Part shown: piece by piece, positions 6,275-56,136 of the stretch
Position numbering within the stretch: position 1 is the first letter of the stretch
How the letters are laid out: each line of letters opens with the position of its first letter
Assembly (NCBI GenBank): GCA_947626145.1
Contig: CANQRB010000005.1
Location: forward strand, 62,001-126,000
Length of the DNA: 64,000 bases
Source of the DNA: an uncultured Clostridia bacterium
GTDB taxonomy: Bacteria > Bacillota > Clostridia > UMGS1883
Direction: 5' to 3'
Position numbers and translations under genes: made by a program
Notes under the pieces: model-generated
The model's input: only the letters and a program-made list of their open reading frames with translations
What the model was told of the DNA's origin: nothing
The model's database searches: none

Positions 6275-7297
6275 ATGGCAAAAAAGGCCATGAAGCGTCC
6301 CAACGGCGCCGGAACCGTCATTGACTACGGCCCCCGGGCGCGCCTGCGCTATGGCGGACGCATTACCGTCGGCATAATCGACGGCAAACAGATTTATAAA
6401 TATCTGGATCGCTTTGAAACGAAAACTGAAGCCCGGCGTCAGCTTGATCTGTACGCCGCGGGGCAGTATGTTCCGCCGTCAAATATGACCCTTGCCGAGC
6501 TATTCAGTGAGTGGAGCTCGCTGCACTATCCGCGAATATCCAAGCAGCTTCGGGACAATTACAACGCCGCCTTCAAGCACCTCGCCCCGCTGCACAAGAA
6601 AAAATTTGTCGAGCTGCGCACGGTAAATTTTCAATCCCTCATCGATGCGCTAAGCCTGAGCTATTCCAGCAAAAGCAAAATCAAGGCGTTGGCGGGCATG
6701 TTGTATAAGTATGCCATGATGAACGACATTGTAAATAAAAATTATGCCTCATTCGTCAATATCGGCAAGCAGGAAAAAACGGAAAAGACCGTATTCACCG
6801 CCGAGGAGATAGAGAAGCTTAAGGCCGTAAGGCCGGAAAGCGATATGATCCTGATTTTGATATACACGGGGTTTCGGCTTCAGGAGCTGCTCAACCTGAC
6901 CGCCGACGACATCGATCTTGAGGAGGGCGTAATTCATGGCGGATTGAAAACCGACGCGGGCAGGAACAGGATCGTCCCGCTGCACCCATATATTCAGCCT
7001 ATAGTGTCGTCGCTGTGCGAGAACAAACGCGGGCCGCTCTTCGTAAATCCCAGCGGGAGCGTTATCACTCAGGATTATTTTAGAAAGCGGATATATTATC
7101 CTCTGCTGGACAAACTGGGTATTCCGCGCCGAACGCCGCACTCTACACGGCACACCTTTGCCACTCTGCTGGTTGAGGGCGGAGCTGACCCGAAGGCCGT
7201 GACAGATCTTCTCGGACATACTGATTATGCGTTCACCGCAAACACCTACGCTCACTCCGATTTCAACTTTCTCAAAAACGCCGTTATGCTGTTGTAA
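6275..7297 (+). CDS. int: tyrosine recombinase / phage integrase
   Basis: A 340-residue integrase. The N-terminal ~60 residues are an arm-binding region, residues ~70-160 the SAM-like core-binding domain, and ~175-340 the catalytic domain. Active-site residues are visible: Arg in TGFRLQELLNL (about 200), Lys in GGLKTDAGRNRI, His-x-x-Arg in TPHSTRHTFATLL (about 288-291), His in LLGHTDY (about 314) and the Tyr nucleophile in ANTYAHS (about 324). ATG 6275 follows GGGAG by 10 bases; the longer frame from 6161 would run through the predicted small-RNA promoter. It lies 177 bases from the tRNA-Pro attachment site, as expected for a phage end. Confidence 0.92.
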   Translation: MAKKAMKRPNGAGTVIDYGPRARLRYGGRITVGIIDGKQIYKYLDRFETKTEARRQLDLYAAGQYVPPSNMTLAELFSEWSSLHYPRISKQLRDNYNAAFKHLAPLHKKKFVELRTVNFQSLIDALSLSYSSKSKIKALAGMLYKYAMMNDIVNKNYASFVNIGKQEKTEKTVFTAEEIEKLKAVRPESDMILILIYTGFRLQELLNLTADDIDLEEGVIHGGLKTDAGRNRIVPLHPYIQPIVSSLCENKRGPLFVNPSGSVITQDYFRKRIYYPLLDKLGIPRRTPHSTRHTFATLLVEGGADPKAVTDLLGHTDYAFTANTYAHSDFNFLKNAVMLL

Positions 7298-14895: not shown

Positions 14896-14904
14896 GTGCA
14901 CAGT

Positions 14905-14945
14905 AAAAAACATCAAATCCCGCGGCGCATACACGGGATTTGATG
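14905..14945 (-). terminator. terminator after the GH78/small-protein operon
   Basis: A perfect 12-bp stem (14911-14922 with 14934-14945) followed on the minus strand by six Ts (14910-14905). It lies about 20 bases beyond the small-protein stop. Confidence 0.8.
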
Positions 14946-14966
14946 CTTTTTCACTGTCCGGTATTT

Positions 14967-15137
14967 TTATTCGCCGTCATTCCACTCTTTCCAGATGTTA
15001 TAGTCCTGAACAACTGTATCGTCAATCTTGACTATCTGCGCGGAGGAGCGCTCGGCGCTGATGCGGAGCACTCCCGTCATAACATCCCCTGTCCGGAGGG
15101 GAACCACGGTTATTTCGGGTTTAATAAACTTTTTCAT
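14967..15137 (-). CDS. small protein paired with exported C-terminal domain (copy A)
   Basis: A 56-residue protein (starts MKKFIKPEITVVPL, ends DYNIWKEWNDGE). AAAGGAGG lies 6-8 bases before the ATG, immediately after the GH78 stop, so the two genes are co-translated. It is clearly related to the 55-residue protein at 53848-54015: both begin MKK..I.P(E/D), share a central V-M-(T/S)-G-x-L-x-I-S-A block, then x-I-D-D-x-V and Y-N-x-W-K-E. There is no signal peptide or TM segment, so it probably stays in the cytoplasm. I recall many small clostridial proteins starting MKKY..PEIE.., without known function. None is assigned here. Confidence 0.7.
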   Translation of the reverse strand: MKKFIKPEITVVPLRTGDVMTGVLRISAERSSAQIVKIDDTVVQDYNIWKEWNDGE

Positions 15138-15149
15138 ATTCGGCCTCCT

Positions 15150-18100
15150 TTAAAGCTCGGGCACAAATTCCTGCCCGGCGGCGGCGCTTTCGACCGTGAC
15201 GGTTTCGATAAGCGTTTCCACAAATTCTATCTGCACCGCGTCAAGGGACAGGGTCTCGGCAATCGCAAGACCGTCGGAGTCCCGACCCGTCAACGTGACC
15301 TTCCCGCCGTCGAGAGTGACGCCGGTATACACAACGGACGTCTCGCCCTCACCGCAAACGGAGCCCACATAAAGCTTTCCGTCCGCAAGGACGAAGCCTA
15401 TACCCAGCTCGGCAAACTGAGGTCTTATGACAACGGTGTCGGTCTTTCCTTCCGGCTTTTCCATGAGCCTGGCCCGCACACTGTCGAGAGCGTCAATGCC
15501 GACCAGTCCGCCCTTGCCTATCACGGCGTTGGCCTTGGCGAGGACGTCCCTGTCCAACTCGTCGGGCGAGGTGTAGCCGCTCGTCACAATGTCGTCGATG
15601 ACAAGCTCGTACAACGTCGTGCCCGCCGCCGAGGCAGATGCGCTGACCGCTCCGGCGGCGCTCTTTATATAGGCGCTGAGCCTGTACGGAACGTTGGAGT
15701 TTTCCGGCACGAATGCCACGGCCGCTCTGCCGTCGCTGAGCGTCAGCTCTGTTTCGGCGCCGACCGGTTTCCACTCGCCGCTCTCCAGATATTCGACCAC
15801 CGCACAGTATTTTCCATCGTTCCCGGCTTTGGCGTCGTTAAAGTCAACGACATATTCCACGGCCAGCTCGCCGTCCGCCGTGAGGGCAAGGTAGGGCGCG
15901 CTCAGTTCGGCAGTTGCATTGACCGCTTCATAGCCTTTGGCCAGGGCTGCGCTAAGCCTGCCGTCGGTCACGGTGAAATCATATCCGCCGGACTCAAGGG
16001 CAAACTTGGCCTTAAGCCCGCCGTTATGCTGTTCCATACCAAGGAAGCTCACGCCCGGGATATTTACAAAGCCTCTTACGCTCTCGGCGGAAACGGGAAG
16101 ATAGAGAGTTGCGGACGTGTTGGCCGGAATTACGGCATGATATTCGGTCAGGACCGCGTTTTCGTCAGCCGTCCAATCAGACCGCACTGTGCCATAGAAG
16201 GAGTCATACTGTCCACTCACCGAACGGATGCGTTCCTCGTCGTTGTACTTGGTTCCCTTATCAAGAGTTGGCTGAAGAATGATATTTTTAAAGCCATTTT
16301 CGGACTCTATGCCCGCCATATACCGGTACATCCACTCAGCCACGGAACCGTAGGCGAAGTGATTAAAGGAGTTCATCTCCGCGTCGCCGAAGCCATTGTC
16401 CCTGTCGTAGGAGTTCCAGCGCTCCCATATGGAGGTCGCCCCCGACCTTACCTCGAAGAGCCAGGAGGGCATTTCGGTGCTTAACAGCAGGTCATAGCTC
16501 ACATCGGAGCGGCCCGCGTCGCTGAGGACGGGCGTGATGACATTCGAGCCAAGGAAGCCGACGGCAAGGGTGTTTTTGCCGTACTGTGCCCTTACGCTGC
16601 CGGGGTCGGGATTTTCGTTCCTGATATTCTCCACCAGCATGGCAAGAGCCTCGTCCCGCATTTCGTCGCTGCTGTACCAGCCCAGCTTGAGCATCCACAA
16701 CAGAGCGGTCTGGGAATTGTCCTCGATAACTCCGGCCTTTCCGGCGTTGGCCATGAACAGGCCGTTATTGCCTCCCTCGGAGGAGTAGACCTTAAGGCTG
16801 TGGGTCTCGCCGGCGGTGGCGCTGTACTCCCCCACCTTCCGCCAGCTTGTATTGTCGGTGGAAACCTCTATTGTAAAATGTCTCGGGTGGTTTACGCAGA
16901 CGCTTGGCTTCATGGACCTGCTTTCGTCATAACGGCAGAATATTTTGACGTTGCTGATATTTTGGGCTTCGCCAAGATCAACGGTGACCGATATGGGTGA
17001 AGCGGCAATATCGCTGCCGGCATTGGTATTTGAGCTGTAGCCGTCTGTGCCGGCGTATTTTCCGTCCGTGAGATTGATTATGTTCCAGCCGTAGTCGTTG
17101 AAGGTATTGTTTGACTCGGCGGATTTTCCGGCGGCGTAGTTCGCCGCGCCCTCCTCGCCGTAGACCTCCAGCTCCATTATCTGAAGTCGGTGTTCCCCGT
17201 CGTTACTGGTGCCGGGGCCGGTCTCGGTGGCGGTGAGGCGCAGATATTGAGCCTGTGTGGGCTCAAACTCCGCCGTCATGACATAGTTGTCAAAGGTCGG
17301 GGCGGGCAGCACGGTCACGTCGCCGAGGTCGGTGAAGGTCACGTATGTTTTTAAATAGGCCTGCTTTTCCTGTTCAAATTTATCACTGTAGTAGGCCTCT
17401 TTTTCCTTGTCCCCCACAATGGCCGCCATTTCGGTCATGAGCGAGGTGACGTATCCGTAATAGTAGTCTGCCATGATAGAATAGCCCGAGCCTTGGAAGG
17501 CCAGCCAGTCGCCGTAGCCGTGCCTGTCCACGTTCGGAGCCTGATTGTCCCCACGTTCGTATCTTTCCAAAAAATCCATGTAGGCGTTCATCGCCGCCCA
17601 GTTATCCTTTAAGAACTGCACATCACCGGTCTGCACGTAATAGGAATAGGCGTTAATTACCTCCACGTCGCTCCAGCCCGTGGCCCAATGGCGGAAATAG
17701 CCGCTCAAAGCCAGCACCGCCGCCGGAAAGCCGTCCTTAAGAGTGTTGTCGCTCAGAAGCTCCTGATACCCGTTCAGGAAAGCGGCGCTGTCGAAGTTGT
17801 ACATCGCCGTACGGGCGAAGGCCTGAGCGTCGCCCGTCCAGGCCAGCCGCTCGTCACGCTGGGGACAGTCGGTGGGAATGGTGAAGAAGTTGCTCAGCTG
17901 GCCGTAAAAGGCGTTTTGGAACAGCCGGTTCACATCCTGATTATTGGTCTTGATGAAGCCCGTCTGACGGCTGACCGAGGACAGCGCCCGGGAACGGAGG
18001 CCGGTTACGGTGACGTCGCCGCCTGTGGCCTTGAGCTCCACATACTGATATCCGAAAAAGCTCACGGACGGCTGGTACACCTCCTCGCCGGTTCCGGCAA

Positions 18101-20033
18101 AGGTATAGTGAACCTCGGAGCGGGCATTACGCAGGCTCTTGGTGTAAATACTGCCTTTGGGGCCGCTGGCCTGAGTGGCCCCGTTGCCCACGGCGCTGCC
18201 GTCGTTGAGCATTTCGGCAAATTTCATGTTCAGCCCAACGCCCTTGGCCGCGCTGAACTTTATCTCCGGCACGGCGGTCAGGTTTTGCCCCATGTTGACC
18301 ACCATCGTCTGGCCGTCCCTGAGAGTTATGCCGTTTTCAAACATATTCTCTCCGCTGTATTCGGCCAGAACGTCTATCTCTCCGCCGGGATAAGAGAAGC
18401 CGGTTTTGGTTCCGCTGTAAACCTGAGCTGAGACGGGCCGCTGCTCAAAGGAGTCAACTATACGGCCGGACATTCCTCTTGAGGGACGAATTTCACCGGC
18501 ATAGTTCACGGCGACAAGGCTGTGGGGATAAAGTACGCTGTTCCATACCTCGCCCGCGTCGCATTTGGCTGCGGTCGTCCAGCTTTGGCCGTCGTCGGAA
18601 ACCTGTATCTCATAGATCTTGGGATAATTGGGGCAAAGCTCACCGCTGACCGAGGCCTTTTCCGTGCGGCAAACGATATTTACGGTTTTTATCTCAACAC
18701 TGCTGTCAAAGGCAAAATCCACCGTAATCGGAGCGTCCGGCCTGTAGCTCGCCGCACCCGTCTTTATAAAGTCGCGGGTGGTGTATCCCCCGGTCACGTC
18801 CGGCCCATAGTTTCCGTCATTTATATTGGAAAGCTGCCACTGAGTAGGAGCCTCGAAATTTTCGGAGGCCGTGACCTTTGCGCCAAGGGCGTGATTGGTT
18901 CCCGAAGCGTCTAAAGCTTCCAGCTCCATTATCTGGAGTCGGGTCTCGCCGTCCTCCTTCACCGCCGGGCCGATCTCCGACACGGACAGCCGCATATACT
19001 TTGCGGCCTTCGGACTTGCAATATCGGTTTTGATTATGTACGGAGTGCCATTGTTTTCGGCTTGGCCTATCCAACCGGAGTCGTCATAACCGGGGTTTTG
19101 ATAGTCGCCCAGAGCCGCAAGCCTTCCGGCGTCGTAGTCCTCGCCGTAGTACACTCCGTTGCCGGTAATGGGGCCGCCGAGGGTGCCCTTCCAGTCTGTA
19201 GTATTAGTGGTTATCTTCTGTGTGCCCCTATCGGTGTTTATGACAAGCATGGCCTTGACCGCCGGCCGTCCCGAAGTGGCGTCCAGCACTCCCTCGGCTC
19301 CTCCGTCGTTCCAGCCGGTACCGGCGGTGACAGTGACTACCGCCGCGGACTGACCCTTGAGCTGCTCGGTCACGTCGTAGGTTTCGTACTCGATCGAGCG
19401 GTCGCCGTTGCCGTAGCCCGGGTTCATAAAGGGGTACACCTTTTCGCCGTTTTCCGTCCTGTACACGGGCTGTCCGTTGACCTGTGCGGAATACACCCCG
19501 AGGGCCGTTATGTACAAACGCGCGGAAACGACGTTCCCGTCAATGGCCTTTTCCGTTCTGAATATGGGTGCGGCCGAAGCTTCCTGCAAGGCGATGAAAT
19601 CCGCATTTTGCCAGTCGGGGTCGCCGTCCGCGGCGGTCTCAAAGTACGCCTCGTCGCAGGTAGTCTCGTTCCCGTCCTGATCCCAGACGGTAACCATCCA
19701 GCCGTACCTGACAGCGTCCTCCAGCGCCGGGCCGCCGTAAGGGATACCCACGGAAACGCCGCTTTCGACCTTGCCGGAGTCCCAGACGGCCTCACCGCCC
19801 TTTGTCACTTTGATCTCGTAGGCCGACTGACTCTCTCCGACGCATTTCGACTCCATCCTCCAGCCGAAACGGACGCCGTCGGCGTCGATGCCCAAAGGAT
19901 CGGTCATGTAATTTACCGTCGGCGAGGCAACGGTAAACGCCGCCGCTTCCGCACCCACGGGCGGCACGGTGCAGGTCGAGGTCACAAAAAATGTCAATGC
20001 CAAAGCCACCGCCGCCTTTCTCAGATTTTTCAT
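15150..20033 (-). CDS. exported multidomain alpha-L-rhamnosidase (GH78) with two discoidin modules
   Basis: A 1,627-residue secreted enzyme. A signal peptide (about 1-32) is followed by a fibronectin-like N-domain, a GH78 N-terminal beta domain (TAGTGWNDGG), a discoidin-like module (about 345-510), and the GH78 catalytic core with DCPQRDERLAWTGDAQ near 722 and IWERWNSY near 1203. A second discoidin-like module (about 928-1078) interrupts the catalytic barrel. Then come a beta C-domain, an Ig-like region and a ~150-residue C-terminal domain (from LYELVIDDI) shared with the 54 kb protein. It should release rhamnose from plant or bacterial glycans outside the cell. ATG 20033 follows GGGAGG; the start at 20048 lies upstream of that site. 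Confidence 0.88.
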   Translation of the reverse strand: MKNLRKAAVALALTFFVTSTCTVPPVGAEAAAFTVASPTVNYMTDPLGIDADGVRFGWRMESKCVGESQSAYEIKVTKGGEAVWDSGKVESGVSVGIPYGGPALEDAVRYGWMVTVWDQDGNETTCDEAYFETAADGDPDWQNADFIALQEASAAPIFRTEKAIDGNVVSARLYITALGVYSAQVNGQPVYRTENGEKVYPFMNPGYGNGDRSIEYETYDVTEQLKGQSAAVVTVTAGTGWNDGGAEGVLDATSGRPAVKAMLVINTDRGTQKITTNTTDWKGTLGGPITGNGVYYGEDYDAGRLAALGDYQNPGYDDSGWIGQAENNGTPYIIKTDIASPKAAKYMRLSVSEIGPAVKEDGETRLQIMELEALDASGTNHALGAKVTASENFEAPTQWQLSNINDGNYGPDVTGGYTTRDFIKTGAASYRPDAPITVDFAFDSSVEIKTVNIVCRTEKASVSGELCPNYPKIYEIQVSDDGQSWTTAAKCDAGEVWNSVLYPHSLVAVNYAGEIRPSRGMSGRIVDSFEQRPVSAQVYSGTKTGFSYPGGEIDVLAEYSGENMFENGITLRDGQTMVVNMGQNLTAVPEIKFSAAKGVGLNMKFAEMLNDGSAVGNGATQASGPKGSIYTKSLRNARSEVHYTFAGTGEEVYQPSVSFFGYQYVELKATGGDVTVTGLRSRALSSVSRQTGFIKTNNQDVNRLFQNAFYGQLSNFFTIPTDCPQRDERLAWTGDAQAFARTAMYNFDSAAFLNGYQELLSDNTLKDGFPAAVLALSGYFRHWATGWSDVEVINAYSYYVQTGDVQFLKDNWAAMNAYMDFLERYERGDNQAPNVDRHGYGDWLAFQGSGYSIMADYYYGYVTSLMTEMAAIVGDKEKEAYYSDKFEQEKQAYLKTYVTFTDLGDVTVLPAPTFDNYVMTAEFEPTQAQYLRLTATETGPGTSNDGEHRLQIMELEVYGEEGAANYAAGKSAESNNTFNDYGWNIINLTDGKYAGTDGYSSNTNAGSDIAASPISVTVDLGEAQNISNVKIFCRYDESRSMKPSVCVNHPRHFTIEVSTDNTSWRKVGEYSATAGETHSLKVYSSEGGNNGLFMANAGKAGVIEDNSQTALLWMLKLGWYSSDEMRDEALAMLVENIRNENPDPGSVRAQYGKNTLAVGFLGSNVITPVLSDAGRSDVSYDLLLSTEMPSWLFEVRSGATSIWERWNSYDRDNGFGDAEMNSFNHFAYGSVAEWMYRYMAGIESENGFKNIILQPTLDKGTKYNDEERIRSVSGQYDSFYGTVRSDWTADENAVLTEYHAVIPANTSATLYLPVSAESVRGFVNIPGVSFLGMEQHNGGLKAKFALESGGYDFTVTDGRLSAALAKGYEAVNATAELSAPYLALTADGELAVEYVVDFNDAKAGNDGKYCAVVEYLESGEWKPVGAETELTLSDGRAAVAFVPENSNVPYRLSAYIKSAAGAVSASASAAGTTLYELVIDDIVTSGYTSPDELDRDVLAKANAVIGKGGLVGIDALDSVRARLMEKPEGKTDTVVIRPQFAELGIGFVLADGKLYVGSVCGEGETSVVYTGVTLDGGKVTLTGRDSDGLAIAETLSLDAVQIEFVETLIETVTVESAAAGQEFVPEL

Positions 20034-20057
20034 AGCTTTTCCTCCCATTTTTTAATT

Positions 20058-51818: not shown

Positions 51819-51847
51819 TTGACATCACGGAGAATTAATGCTATACT
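51819..51847 (+). promoter_or_regulatory. promoter of the GH26-like gene
   Basis: TTGACA (51819-51824), 17 bases, TATACT (51842-51847). It shows that the in-frame ATG at 51838 lies in the -10 region and cannot be the start. Confidence 0.7.
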
Positions 51848-51882
51848 GTTCAGGCACAATGATTTTCAGGGGGCAAAGCATA

Positions 51883-53568
51883 ATGAAAAAGCACAAAGGT
51901 TCGGCCATGCTCATATTCATGGCCATGACAGCAATGTTAACACTGCTTCCCGCGACGTGCCTCGCCATGCATGATATGATTGCAATAAATTCATTTTACA
52001 GCGAGGACGCTCCGTCGCAAAATGACGAAACAGATACAAACGAAAAAAGCGCCGCCGGGGACGGATGTTATCTGACAAAGAACGCAAACGGAACCGTAAC
52101 GCTGACCAACCGCGTAGACGGATATTCCATAATCATACCCGGCAGCTCCGCGGTTGACACAAGCCTTTCCCCGATCCGCACGGCGGTAACCTTCGGAAAC
52201 GCGCGGCTTTATATCTACGCCGAGGATACCTCCGACACATCTCAGGACAACTACATATATTACTCCAACGAAAATATATCCGACGACAGGGACATAAAGG
52301 TCATTGAAAGCGGCGAGACGGTTATCCGCGGCCTTGACGCCGCGTACAAGCGCTGGGTGCGCCGTCCCCTTTCCCGGGTCAGGAACGACCTGAACAACTA
52401 CGCCTGCTTTGACATAAAATATGAGGACAGCATGGTCTACACGCTCATGTTCAAATACGGGAACGATGTGAGATTCGACAGGGATATTTTCCCCGTGGTC
52501 AACAGCTTTCGCCCCGTCATTCCCGACGCGGAGCCCGATGAGATAAGGGTCGGCTCAGGGCCCGGGCCGGAGCTTTCTCCCCAGGCAAAAGAGGCCTACG
52601 ACCGGCTTTTCTCCCCCGACGCCCCTTTGACCTGGGGGCTGTTCGTGAACTATCCCGACGATCCGGAACGGCTAAACGCCCTTGAGGAGCAGATAGGGCA
52701 CGAATTTGAAATATACCTGCACTACACGAGCTTTTTCCCCATGGAGGACGGCTGGCCGAGCCTGATGAATATCCGGCTTTTGGACGCACTTAACGTGACC
52801 TGTCCCCCGGGGAAGATACCCGAGCTCACCTTCCAGACACGCTATTACAACGACGACATCGACGGCCTGATGATATATGACGTGCTGGACGGGCAGTACG
52901 ACTACTTCATCCACAGCTACGCCTCGGATGTGGCGGCCTTCGGCAGGCCCGTGCTCATGCGCCTCGGCAACGAAATGAACGGCGACTGGTGCTCGTACAA
53001 CGCCTATGAGACCTGCCGCGATCCGGACATTTATGTGGAGTTTTACCGCTACGTATTTGACATATTCCGTCAGGAAGGGGCGGACAACGCCATTTGGGTG
53101 TTCAACCCCAACTGGATATCCTTTCCGGATTTCAAGTGGAACAACGAGCTTCTGTACTATCCCGGGGACGAATATGTCAACGTTGTGGGCATGACGGCCT
53201 ACAACACGGGCACCTACTATCCTGACGAATACTGGTACACCTTTGACGAGCTCTATCATGACCTGTACGGCGCTTATCTGGCACGATATGACAGACCGCT
53301 GATGATAACGGAGTTTTCGTGCAGCGGCATCGGCGGGAACAAGGCGGAATGGATCGAGGATATGTTCCGGCGCATACCAGACTACAACATGATAAAGGTC
53401 GCCGTATGGTGGAGCTGTTACGACCTTGACGAGACCGACCCCGACAACCCCGTCATTTCCCGCTCGTATATGATAGACGAGAACGAGGGCACTGTCGAGG
53501 CCTTCCGCAGGGGCATGGAGGCCTATAAAAACGAACCGCAGCAAAAATCATTAAGTAACACTGATTAA
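51883..53568 (+). CDS. exported GH26-like glycoside hydrolase
   Basis: A 561-residue secreted protein with a signal peptide (about 1-30). The N-terminal ~200 residues are of unknown type; residues about 235-550 are a TIM barrel of GH26 (mannanase-like) type. Key residues: Glu in RLGNEMNGDW (about 366, acid/base), WVFNPNWIS, and Glu in LMITEFSCSG (about 478, nucleophile). It probably hydrolyses beta-mannan or a related beta-glycan outside the cell; family and substrate are inferred from these motifs. ATG 51883 follows AGGGGG by 10 bases. Confidence 0.8.
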   Translation: MKKHKGSAMLIFMAMTAMLTLLPATCLAMHDMIAINSFYSEDAPSQNDETDTNEKSAAGDGCYLTKNANGTVTLTNRVDGYSIIIPGSSAVDTSLSPIRTAVTFGNARLYIYAEDTSDTSQDNYIYYSNENISDDRDIKVIESGETVIRGLDAAYKRWVRRPLSRVRNDLNNYACFDIKYEDSMVYTLMFKYGNDVRFDRDIFPVVNSFRPVIPDAEPDEIRVGSGPGPELSPQAKEAYDRLFSPDAPLTWGLFVNYPDDPERLNALEEQIGHEFEIYLHYTSFFPMEDGWPSLMNIRLLDALNVTCPPGKIPELTFQTRYYNDDIDGLMIYDVLDGQYDYFIHSYASDVAAFGRPVLMRLGNEMNGDWCSYNAYETCRDPDIYVEFYRYVFDIFRQEGADNAIWVFNPNWISFPDFKWNNELLYYPGDEYVNVVGMTAYNTGTYYPDEYWYTFDELYHDLYGAYLARYDRPLMITEFSCSGIGGNKAEWIEDMFRRIPDYNMIKVAVWWSCYDLDETDPDNPVISRSYMIDENEGTVEAFRRGMEAYKNEPQQKSLSNTD

Positions 53569-53696
53569 ATAAAGTGTTTACTCGAAACACAGCGCCTGCG
53601 TTTACACGGAACTTTAAAAGATTCCGGAATGAGATATTATTTATGTTTTATCGGGGAAAACAGCAGGCAATGCGCAAAAGAAATTTAAGCGAAAAA

Positions 53697-53729
53697 AACA
53701 GGTTTCGACTTAGATCGAAACCTGTTTCA
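53697..53729. terminator. bidirectional terminator
   Basis: AACAGGTTTCGA-loop-TCGAAACCTGTT, a 12-bp perfect stem. On the minus strand it ends in TTTTTTT, serving the small-protein gene; on the plus strand it serves the GH26-like gene. The rest of the 53569-53847 gap shows nothing recognisable. Confidence 0.8.
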
Positions 53730-53847: not shown

Positions 53848-54015
53848 TTACTGTTGATTTTCCTTCCATGTATTATAACCTTCGGCCGTAACGTTATCAT
53901 CAATAAATATAATTGCCTTGCGTTCATCGGCGCTTATAGCAAGGGCGCCGCTCATAACGCCCTCGGCGGACATTTCGCGAATTTCAACATCGGGTATAAT
54001 GAATTCTTTTTTCAT
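53848..54015 (-). CDS. small protein paired with exported C-terminal domain (copy B)
   Basis: A 55-residue protein (starts MKKEFIIPDVEIREM, ends EGYNTWKENQQ). AAGGAGG lies 8 bases before the ATG, directly after the stop of the exported protein gene, with the same spacing as copy A at 14967-15137. Shared with copy A: MKK..I.P, V-M-S-G-A-L-A-I-S-A, F-I-D-D-x-V and Y-N-T-W-K-E. No signal or TM segment. Function unknown. Recurrence with the same C-terminal domain suggests a functional pairing. Confidence 0.7.
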   Translation of the reverse strand: MKKEFIIPDVEIREMSAEGVMSGALAISADERKAIIFIDDNVTAEGYNTWKENQQ

Positions 54016-54029
54016 TGTGGTATTCCTCC

Positions 54030-55460
54030 TTACAGCTCAGGTATGAAGTCAAGCGCGGTATCAGAACCGTTACCGGCAGCTTCTTCGATCATGGTTTCAA
54101 CAAACTCTATCTCCACAGAATCAAGGCTCAAAACCTCGACAGCTTGTGTTCCGGCCGCGCCGGAAAGCTCAACGCTACCATTGTCTTTAACGGCTATCTT
54201 TGTGTAAACTATGGAGCCTTCGCCCTTAGTGGAATCGCTGCCGACATAGAGCCCGCCGCCGCTTACCAAAAAGCCGATACCCAGATCGGAAAATTCCTTT
54301 TTGATCTGAACCGCATTTTCATTTTCCACCTTTTCCATAAGGCCGCTTCTTACATTGTCAAGCTCGCTTACGGAAATCAACCCGCCGTCGGCTATCACCT
54401 TGTTGGCGTTGGCGAGACGGGCCTCGTTAAGTCCGTCTGCGGAATACCCGCCGCCGGCAATATCCTCAATAACCACTTTGTAGAGGCTGGAGGTCACTTT
54501 TCCCACCTCATATTCACCGCCGTCAATAACAGCCTTAAGAACAGCAGTATAGTTCACGTTTGAGCCATAGCCGGTACTGCTCTTTGTCGGGATCAGTCCG
54601 ACGGCGTTCTTATCAGCGTTGATATTGGCATTGCCGACCTCTTCTCCGCTGTCATTACTTATGTAAGCCTTTAAAGTAAGATCGCCGGGAAGCTGGCTGA
54701 TCGCGTCGCCAAACATGAAATCCACAGTCAGCGTGTTGGCGTCAAGGCCCTCGGTTCCTTCCGGAACGAAGCCCAGCTCCGCGGCAGGCTTCACAACATC
54801 TACTGCCTCAATCTCAAAAAGCTCAACCTTGTCAAAGTACTGACCATCAAAATACCTGGTATTAATCGCGGCATATTTGGCGTTTTCTTCCGGTCTCGCC
54901 GTTAAAATATAAACAATTTGATGCCAACGGTCTTTAGGCAAGCCTTTCTGATTTGCGTCACTGTCACCATAGGACGTTCCGCCGGACCCCTTATAAAGAT
55001 TGCTCGCCGAATCTGTGGTAGACAACCCCATAGAGCACCATACGGACTCCGTATGGCTGTAACGCCAAAGACTGAGTACATACAGCTTTTCTTTGTCTAC
55101 CACATTACCGCCATTCAACGGAACGGCAAGCGAAAAATGACCGGAAGACGTTGCGCTGCCGTTTGTGGTGGTTGTCAAAGATTTTGACCCGTCGAAGAAC
55201 AAGTCCTCAGACGGTTTAACGTCGGCTCCCGAACCTTTCCACTGCCCGTTGGCAGTTTCAAAAGTTTCCTCAAAGCTGCCGTTTACAACCATATCCTCGC
55301 TTTTTTTGCCGTAAATTTTGAGCAGCTTTACGGTAGCGGTGTTATTTTCTTCCGACACAACACCGGGTTCTCCGGTGCTAACTACCTTGTACACGTTTCC
55401 GCCGAACTGCAGCCAATCGCCCACGTCTGCTAAAAATGTAAATGGTTCACCATCCACCAC
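54030..55460 (-). CDS. C-terminal part of an exported protein (frameshifted), with shared C-terminal domain
   Basis: The open frame gives 476 residues starting inside the gene. It holds a carbohydrate-binding-like beta-sandwich (MVVNGSFEETFETANGQWKGSG, then FSLAVPLNGGN and MGLSTTDSASNLYKG), an Ig-like region, and the C-terminal domain from LYKVVIEDIAGGGYS to DFIPEL. The Ig-like region and C-terminal domain align along about 240 residues with the end of the GH78 enzyme. It continues the frame of 55447-56136 if one A is removed from the nine-A run at 55462-55470, so the two pieces form one ~700-residue secreted protein. The enzyme activity, if any, is unknown. Confidence 0.75.
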   Translation of the reverse strand: MVDGEPFTFLADVGDWLQFGGNVYKVVSTGEPGVVSEENNTATVKLLKIYGKKSEDMVVNGSFEETFETANGQWKGSGADVKPSEDLFFDGSKSLTTTTNGSATSSGHFSLAVPLNGGNVVDKEKLYVLSLWRYSHTESVWCSMGLSTTDSASNLYKGSGGTSYGDSDANQKGLPKDRWHQIVYILTARPEENAKYAAINTRYFDGQYFDKVELFEIEAVDVVKPAAELGFVPEGTEGLDANTLTVDFMFGDAISQLPGDLTLKAYISNDSGEEVGNANINADKNAVGLIPTKSSTGYGSNVNYTAVLKAVIDGGEYEVGKVTSSLYKVVIEDIAGGGYSADGLNEARLANANKVIADGGLISVSELDNVRSGLMEKVENENAVQIKKEFSDLGIGFLVSGGGLYVGSDSTKGEGSIVYTKIAVKDNGSVELSGAAGTQAVEVLSLDSVEIEFVETMIEEAAGNGSDTALDFIPEL

Positions 55461-56136
55461 GTTTTTTTTTGTCAGTGTATGCGGTCACTCCCTCAGTATC
55501 CACATAATTTACCGCTGCATCAACCAAAGTGCTGAATCTAAGACTCGGAGCATTATTTTCGCTGTGATTATAAAAACTTGCTCCGGCATTACCGGTAGAA
55601 TTTTTATCATCACGCAGCGGCTTCGGAATGCAAATAATAATGGTTTTCGCGTTATTTGGAACTATTGATATTAAATCGGATTTAACCGAGACACCAATTT
55701 CTCCTGAGGTCGGGACTCTCATACTTCCGTCCTTAATATATGTCTTTGAAGTATTTCCATAGGCTATTGCGTTTTCCTTATTTATGGATGACGCTTCCTC
55801 ATCCTGAAGCAAAATGTACTGAAGGGATGAGTTGCCTATTTGTCCATTATTTGGATAGGCCTTTGTGGTAACGGAAAGTTGAACGTAAATATTATCCTCA
55901 CTTCTCAAAGCCTCGGGTATCTCGAATACGGCATAACCTGTTCGCGCGTTTATGCAGCTGAAATTGTGTTCCGCAGATTCGTCCAGCGCATTGTTATTGA
56001 TCGCAAACGTATACGACGCTTTGACATTTTCCTGCGCAGCCGATGCGCATACCGCCATTGCCATCACCAGTCCCAACGCAAGAACCAGCACCACGGCAAG
56101 CCGACTCAACCTGCCGTGCATTTTTTCTTTTTTCAT
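55447..56136 (-). CDS. N-terminal part of the frameshifted exported protein
   Basis: A 229-residue open frame: signal peptide (about 1-33; LAVVLVLALGLVMAMAVCASAA) then a beta-rich domain of CBM/DNRLRE type (YTFAINNNALDESAEHNFSCINARTGYAVFEIP, IYVQLSVTTKAY, SLRFSTLVDAAVNYV) that breaks into KKKRGGW and a stop at the nine-A run. With eight As the frame would read on into DGEPFTFLADVG of the downstream piece. GGAGG lies 9-10 bases before the ATG. It is interrupted by a real frameshift, a slippage site or a sequencing error. Confidence 0.75.
   Translation of the reverse strand: MKKEKMHGRLSRLAVVLVLALGLVMAMAVCASAAQENVKASYTFAINNNALDESAEHNFSCINARTGYAVFEIPEALRSEDNIYVQLSVTTKAYPNNGQIGNSSLQYILLQDEEASSINKENAIAYGNTSKTYIKDGSMRVPTSGEIGVSVKSDLISIVPNNAKTIIICIPKPLRDDKNSTGNAGASFYNHSENNAPSLRFSTLVDAAVNYVDTEGVTAYTDKKKRGGW

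Follow-up and report, generated by a model that had tools for sequence, protein, structure and literature searches.

A shared C-terminal domain of exported proteins and its small partner ORF in a genus of Clostridia: a candidate substrate family for an RRE-guided peptide pathway

Two exported proteins encoded in the window (the whole stretch of DNA that was analysed, 64,000 nucleotides from an uncultured Clostridia bacterium) end in a common C-terminal domain (CTD), and each is followed by a small open reading frame, which raises the question of what a short protein tied to the 3' end of a secreted-protein gene might do. In copy A, the CTD-bearing passenger called as an ORF is a GH78 alpha-L-rhamnosidase-type protein of 1632 residues with a Sec signal (15150–20048, minus strand), matched by the Pfam family Bac_rhamnosid6H at E = 2e-79 and by F5/8C. 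Its CTD occupies 15150–15638 (minus strand) and ends in IEFVETLI...EFVPEL before the stop. The TAA stop codon overlaps an AGGAGG ribosome-binding site (15138–15152, minus strand), leaving a 12-base gap to the small ORF, and the stretch between the CTD and this ORF contains TAAAGGAGGCCGAATATG. The small ORF itself, recognised by HMM matches (14967–15137, minus strand), encodes 56 residues, MKKFIKPEITVVPLRTGDVMTG...YNIWKEW, with an F-x-x-P-x-I motif. A strong terminator-like hairpin followed by a T run lies at 14901–14960 (minus strand); its loop exceeds eight bases, and it was overlooked by the terminator scanner and recovered by folding.

Copy B, also on the minus strand, adopts the same arrangement on a split passenger gene. 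The 5' part (55447–56136), defined by ORF call and sequence, encodes a signal peptide and its frame ends in a run of nine A, whereas the 3' part (54030–55460, ORF call) bears the CTD. Comparison with copy A places this CTD at 54030–54494, with the end IEFVETMI...DFIPEL before the stop, and the intervening stretch TAAGGAGGAATACCACAATG leads into a 55-residue ORF (53848–54015; MKKEFIIPDVEIREMSAEGVMSG...YNTWKENQQ) identified by small-ORF comparison and an HMM match. A terminator hairpin at 53695–53728 is found by both the scanner and folding. Identity between the two CTDs is 46% over 157 residues (E = 2e-41), and between the two small proteins 38% over 50 residues (E = 1e-11). These comparisons bear out what a sequence-only reading of the window had described: a domain shared by the GH78 protein and a frameshifted protein at 54–56 kb, a stop codon followed by AGGAGG and a protein of ~55 residues, and a terminator after each copy. 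The frameshift in the copy B passenger gene sits in the A run (55440–55470, minus strand; GACAAAAAAAAACGTGG) and may represent an assembly error, decay or phase variation. A GH26-type protein with a signal-like N terminus is encoded nearby at 51838–53568 (plus strand) with neither CTD nor small ORF, which shows that some exported enzymes lie outside the system.

Both copies are real, but two proved too low a number. A CTD profile search of the window's own genome (G000; 2.44 Mb in 23 contigs) yields about 25 CTD loci, and the 24 small-ORF profile matches in this genome all lie at CTD loci. The small ORFs are 50–64 residues long, are preceded by a strong ribosome-binding site and start 12–19 bases after the stop codon in nearly all cases. 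Most proteins carrying the CTD have a Sec-type signal peptide, and their sizes range from 369 to 1660 residues. The domains recognised in them are GH78, GH88, a weak GH39 with CBM35, a borderline GH32, BNR_4, LamG, F5/8C, CBM4_9, ricin-type and Ig-like domains; for several hosts, the domain scan recognised none. Many passengers are predicted to be glycan-binding or glycan-cleaving. Neither the CTD nor the small ORF contains a known Pfam or NCBIfam domain. Several loci show features of their own. At L057 (G000:C3:192450-193075), the CTD has lost ~35 residues of conserved tail and its frame continues into the ribosome-binding site of the small ORF, which is itself intact. Near-identical signal peptides (MRIKKVLSLAVVLAMVLTVVP...) are found at L041, L044, L048 and L058 on otherwise different exported proteins. 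At two adjacent loci (L051:2441-2620 and 6413-6592), the small ORFs are almost identical, with the CTDs and passengers more divergent.

The C-termini of these proteins allow comparison with established surface systems. The use of one trans-acting machine by many exported proteins that share a C-terminal signal or domain is familiar from LPXTG/sortase and PEP-CTERM/exosortase; here, in contrast, each substrate has a separate small ORF and no LPXTG- or PEP-type signal. A sortase substrate was rejected, the C-termini ending in DFIPEL with no LPXTG-like motif, hydrophobic segment or basic tail, and a PEP-CTERM substrate was rejected on the lack of a transmembrane segment or basic tail. The sortase-type anchor tag, one of three roles that the sequence-only reading had offered, is therefore unsupported. 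Domain scans of copies A and B and of further CTD proteins matched no dockerin, which disposes of a cellulosomal assignment. The order of an exported multidomain protein and a small ORF directly 3' of it is also that of toxin–immunity genes, with the CTD as effector and the small ORF as immunity protein. In polymorphic toxins, however, conservation runs the other way: here the C terminus is conserved and the N-terminal passengers vary, no toxin family is matched, and the recognised passenger domains are glycan-active or glycan-binding. The reversed pattern rules out a polymorphic toxin–immunity pair, and a toxin-like arrangement of any kind is exceedingly improbable.

Among related genomes, the CTD is present in all eight of the genus and in none of 52 other relatives; judged by sequence, the domain is confined to the genus and the layout is wider. 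An HMM count of the linkage, of the kind the sequence-only reading had suggested, finds a small-ORF match directly downstream at 86 of the 94 CTD places in the genus. The eight places without one comprise a contig end, two weak or fragmentary matches, two single cases and one locus shared by three genomes. At this shared locus (L088, L097 and L138 in G004, G005 and G006), the CTD gene is followed by the same GshA-like gene. Conversely, only three small ORFs in the genus are without a CTD match, two of them at contig ends. Within the genus, the domain is thus not found widely without the ORF, nor are the ORFs found at random places.

Pooled pN/pS is 0.28 for the small ORF and 0.47 for the CTD, indicating that the small ORF encodes a real protein under stronger purifying selection than the CTD; these values, together with a ribosome-binding site ahead of the small ORF in 80 of 81 distinct sequences, rule out a spurious reading frame. 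Similarity of the CTDs correlates with that of the small ORFs (r = 0.77) more closely than the passenger N terminus does with either the CTD (0.37) or the small ORF (0.48), as for a cassette of CTD and small ORF borne by different passengers. The value of 0.77 is no proof of contact, because linked inheritance alone can yield such a correlation. The AlphaFold2 (AF2) model of the CTD is of moderate quality (pLDDT 70, shallow alignment), with the last 25 residues disordered, and has no PDB match at E<=0.001; the tail of the domain is acidic. When the CTD and small ORF were folded as a read-through, the small part was disordered (pLDDT about 30), again with a shallow alignment. Across the genus, the C-terminal half of this protein is conserved, with a Trp near the C terminus in 87 of 88 sequences and no Cys after residue 20.

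The arrangement extends well beyond the genus. A small-ORF HMM run against 391 genomes of the class detects members in 50, representing 33 of 220 genera. The out-of-genus loci that were read number 41, spanning 15 genera in 10 families; the sample is weighted towards multi-copy genomes, and the genomes are drafts. At 39 of the 41, an ORF on the same strand ends within 47 bases upstream of the small ORF. Of the readable upstream proteins, 29 of 33 are signal-peptide-like by a simple rule, compared with 26 of 117 other ORFs of the same loci (Fisher p = 7e-12). Several pairs per genome are observed in, for example, G224, G098, G043 and G264, and a reading of the G224 loci suggests that one peptide type goes with one type of C terminus. 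Since the combination of peptide and exported protein recurs in other genera with other C-termini, the layout appears to be general and the CTD local. A broader HMM, much less sensitive than the class-level search, finds members in 5 of 398 genomes of the phylum; in two of these (G737 and G768), the order is exported protein, peptide and HPr-kinase-like (HprK-like) gene, with the kinase-like gene directly downstream of the pair. Besides gut Clostridia, at least two genomes from other parts of the phylum have the layout. As the sequence-only reading had surmised, no description of such a system was found in the open-access literature searched.

That the CTD and small ORF move jointly on unrelated passengers could also be explained by hitchhiking, in which new passengers acquire the CTD, small ORF and terminator as one copied block and the fate of the partner does not depend on the small ORF. 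This explanation is already disfavoured, and very unlikely: purifying selection is stronger on the small ORF than on the CTD, loss is nearly absent across about 90 loci, and the layout recurs in 15 genera with other C-termini. The earlier proposal of a dedicated functional pair is, by comparison, strongly supported by the ~25 copies per genome, the near-complete two-way linkage in the genus, the purifying selection and the class-wide layout.

A clue to the function of the pair comes from the N terminus of the small protein. A [FY]xxPx[IVLM] motif is present near this end in 88 of 88 genus sequences and 41 of 41 others, counts that are partly circular, the members having been selected by HMMs built on the motif. 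YxxP is a known recognition motif of PqqD-type RiPP recognition elements (RREs), in which hydrophobic substitutions are tolerated (PMC12710340), and YxxPxL is conserved in the leaders of lasso peptides (PMC10368454). The small-ORF motif resembles this YxxPxL leader motif bound by PqqD-type RREs. Seven out-of-genus genomes (G023, G039, G043, G077, G209, G225 and G227) have a small ORF and a PqqD gene less than 4 kb apart; an HprK-like gene is usually close by, and often an S26-type peptidase or ABC exporter. In many other genomes, HprK-like and PqqD genes are found side by side but away from the pairs.

The phyletic distribution of these genes is linked to that of the small ORFs. At E<=1e-10, 21 of 23 small-ORF genomes beyond the genus encode PqqD, compared with 7 of 22 genomes in which no small ORF was detected (p = 4e-5, relatedness ignored). 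All eight genus genomes contain a PF05402 (PqqD) match above the curated cut-off; the genus protein shares 40% identity with PqqD from the G039 cassette and has sub-threshold NCBIfam matches to lasso PqqD chaperones. An HprK-like gene, detected by its own HMM, is present in the eight genus genomes and in four other genomes with small ORFs, and in none of six genomes with neither small ORF nor PqqD, which were picked for being without PqqD. The housekeeping HPr kinase was rejected as a partner, there being essentially one standard HprK per genus genome. In the window's genome, the PqqD and kinase-like genes are encoded in trans, neither adjoining a pair. The former, on G000:C17, is an orphan gene of the PqqD family that encodes 89 residues and lies directly 5' of ispG (L187:9278-9548); with its orthologues at L188–L190 and L192–L195, the length is 88–89 residues. 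The latter (L316:6251-6983; G000:C13:6772-7476) is distinct from the housekeeping HprK and lies on another contig.

The explanation that best accommodates these observations, to which a probability of about one half is assigned, is that the product of the small ORF is a peptide on which an RRE-guided, RiPP-type pathway acts and which is produced along with one exported protein. It draws on the motif, the linkage to PqqD and HprK-like genes, the cassettes with an S26-type peptidase and ABC exporter, and the export-linked layout. In the proposed mechanism, PqqD would bind the FxxPxI N terminus of the small protein and the HprK-like enzyme would modify the peptide. The modified and possibly cleaved peptide would then leave the cell and join its Sec-exported partner at the surface, where its lineage-specific C-terminal half would meet the CTD of the partner. 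About 25 substrates would in this way share one machine, and each would be produced 1:1 with a surface protein. Several observations count against this RRE-guided pathway: where a RiPP core would be hypervariable, the C-terminal half of the small protein shows conservation across the genus; PqqD-like genes occur in 7 of the 22 genomes with no detected small ORF; and the genus PqqD and kinase-like genes stand apart from the pairs, with no cassette-type peptidase or exporter near them. Of the three roles first offered for the pair, a modification system nevertheless fits best. More tentatively, a single RRE/kinase machine may modify many peptides, each of which becomes the tag, cap or ligand of one Sec-exported surface protein, a clostridial system that would have spread in the window's genus onto ~25 exported proteins per genome via the shared CTD.

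The main rival is a dedicated cytoplasmic chaperone or secretion adaptor, in which the small protein attaches to the acidic, disordered end of the CTD ahead of export, either handing its partner to Sec or keeping it unfolded. Such a role is suggested by the presence of one translationally adjacent small ORF per exported protein, by the co-variation of CTD and small-ORF similarities and by the predicted disorder of the last CTD residues. It is unlikely, however, since conservation in the small protein is highest in a motif that also occurs in genera whose exported proteins have no detectable CTD match, the association with PqqD and HprK-like genes, both physical and phyletic, is left unexplained, and the small protein is not predicted to fold in the low-confidence, shallow-alignment model described above. 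A surface anchoring or assembly pair is less probable still. In such a pair, the CTD would attach and the exported small peptide would act as a subunit or linker to the envelope with no covalent modification, an arrangement suited to glycan-active and glycan-binding passengers, which are typical surface cargo, and to a CTD and small ORF that act as a cassette on different passengers. The small ORF, however, is without a signal peptide, no known anchor domain is matched, and nothing short of modification would account for the PqqD/HprK linkage.

Comparison with known RRE-dependent systems shows how the candidate pathway would differ from them. Similar to RiPP pathways with a discrete PqqD, it combines a short peptide bearing a YxxP-type N-terminal motif with a PqqD-family protein, an HPr-kinase-like enzyme and, in the cassettes, an S26-type peptidase and ABC exporter. 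The differences are that the peptide gene is tied to the 3' end of a gene for a Sec-exported protein, that about 25 peptide genes per genome are served in trans, and that the genus peptides have no Cys after residue 20, a conserved second half and no known natural product. A further likeness is to lasso clusters in which B1, HprK and nucleotidyltransferase are encoded separately (PMC7533575, PMC10368454), which share a YxxPxL leader, a PqqD-type B1, an HPr-kinase-like gene and sometimes a nucleotidyltransferase. The motif, the PqqD and HprK-like genes and the ABC exporter would suit small ORFs that are lasso precursors, but a search of 23 genomes, the window's own included, found the transglutaminase-like leader peptidase B2 (PF13471) in none, and an exported protein is the constant partner here. 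A lasso peptide is ruled out on the absence of B2, and the probability left to this reading is negligible. Beside the loci that were read, no asparagine-synthetase-like cyclase (C) was seen.

Most work on RiPP-type peptides treats them as natural products in their own right; here the same recognition parts appear to be tied gene by gene to exported proteins. If the peptides are modified and meet their partners at the surface, the pairs would represent a novel means of furnishing secreted enzymes and adhesins. They would also point to a role for many orphan PqqD and HprK-like genes and offer a defined set of about 25 substrates per genome on which to test these genes. In G039, one of the genomes with a PqqD-adjacent small ORF, a gene of apparent TasA/SipW type begins after the cassette (L171).
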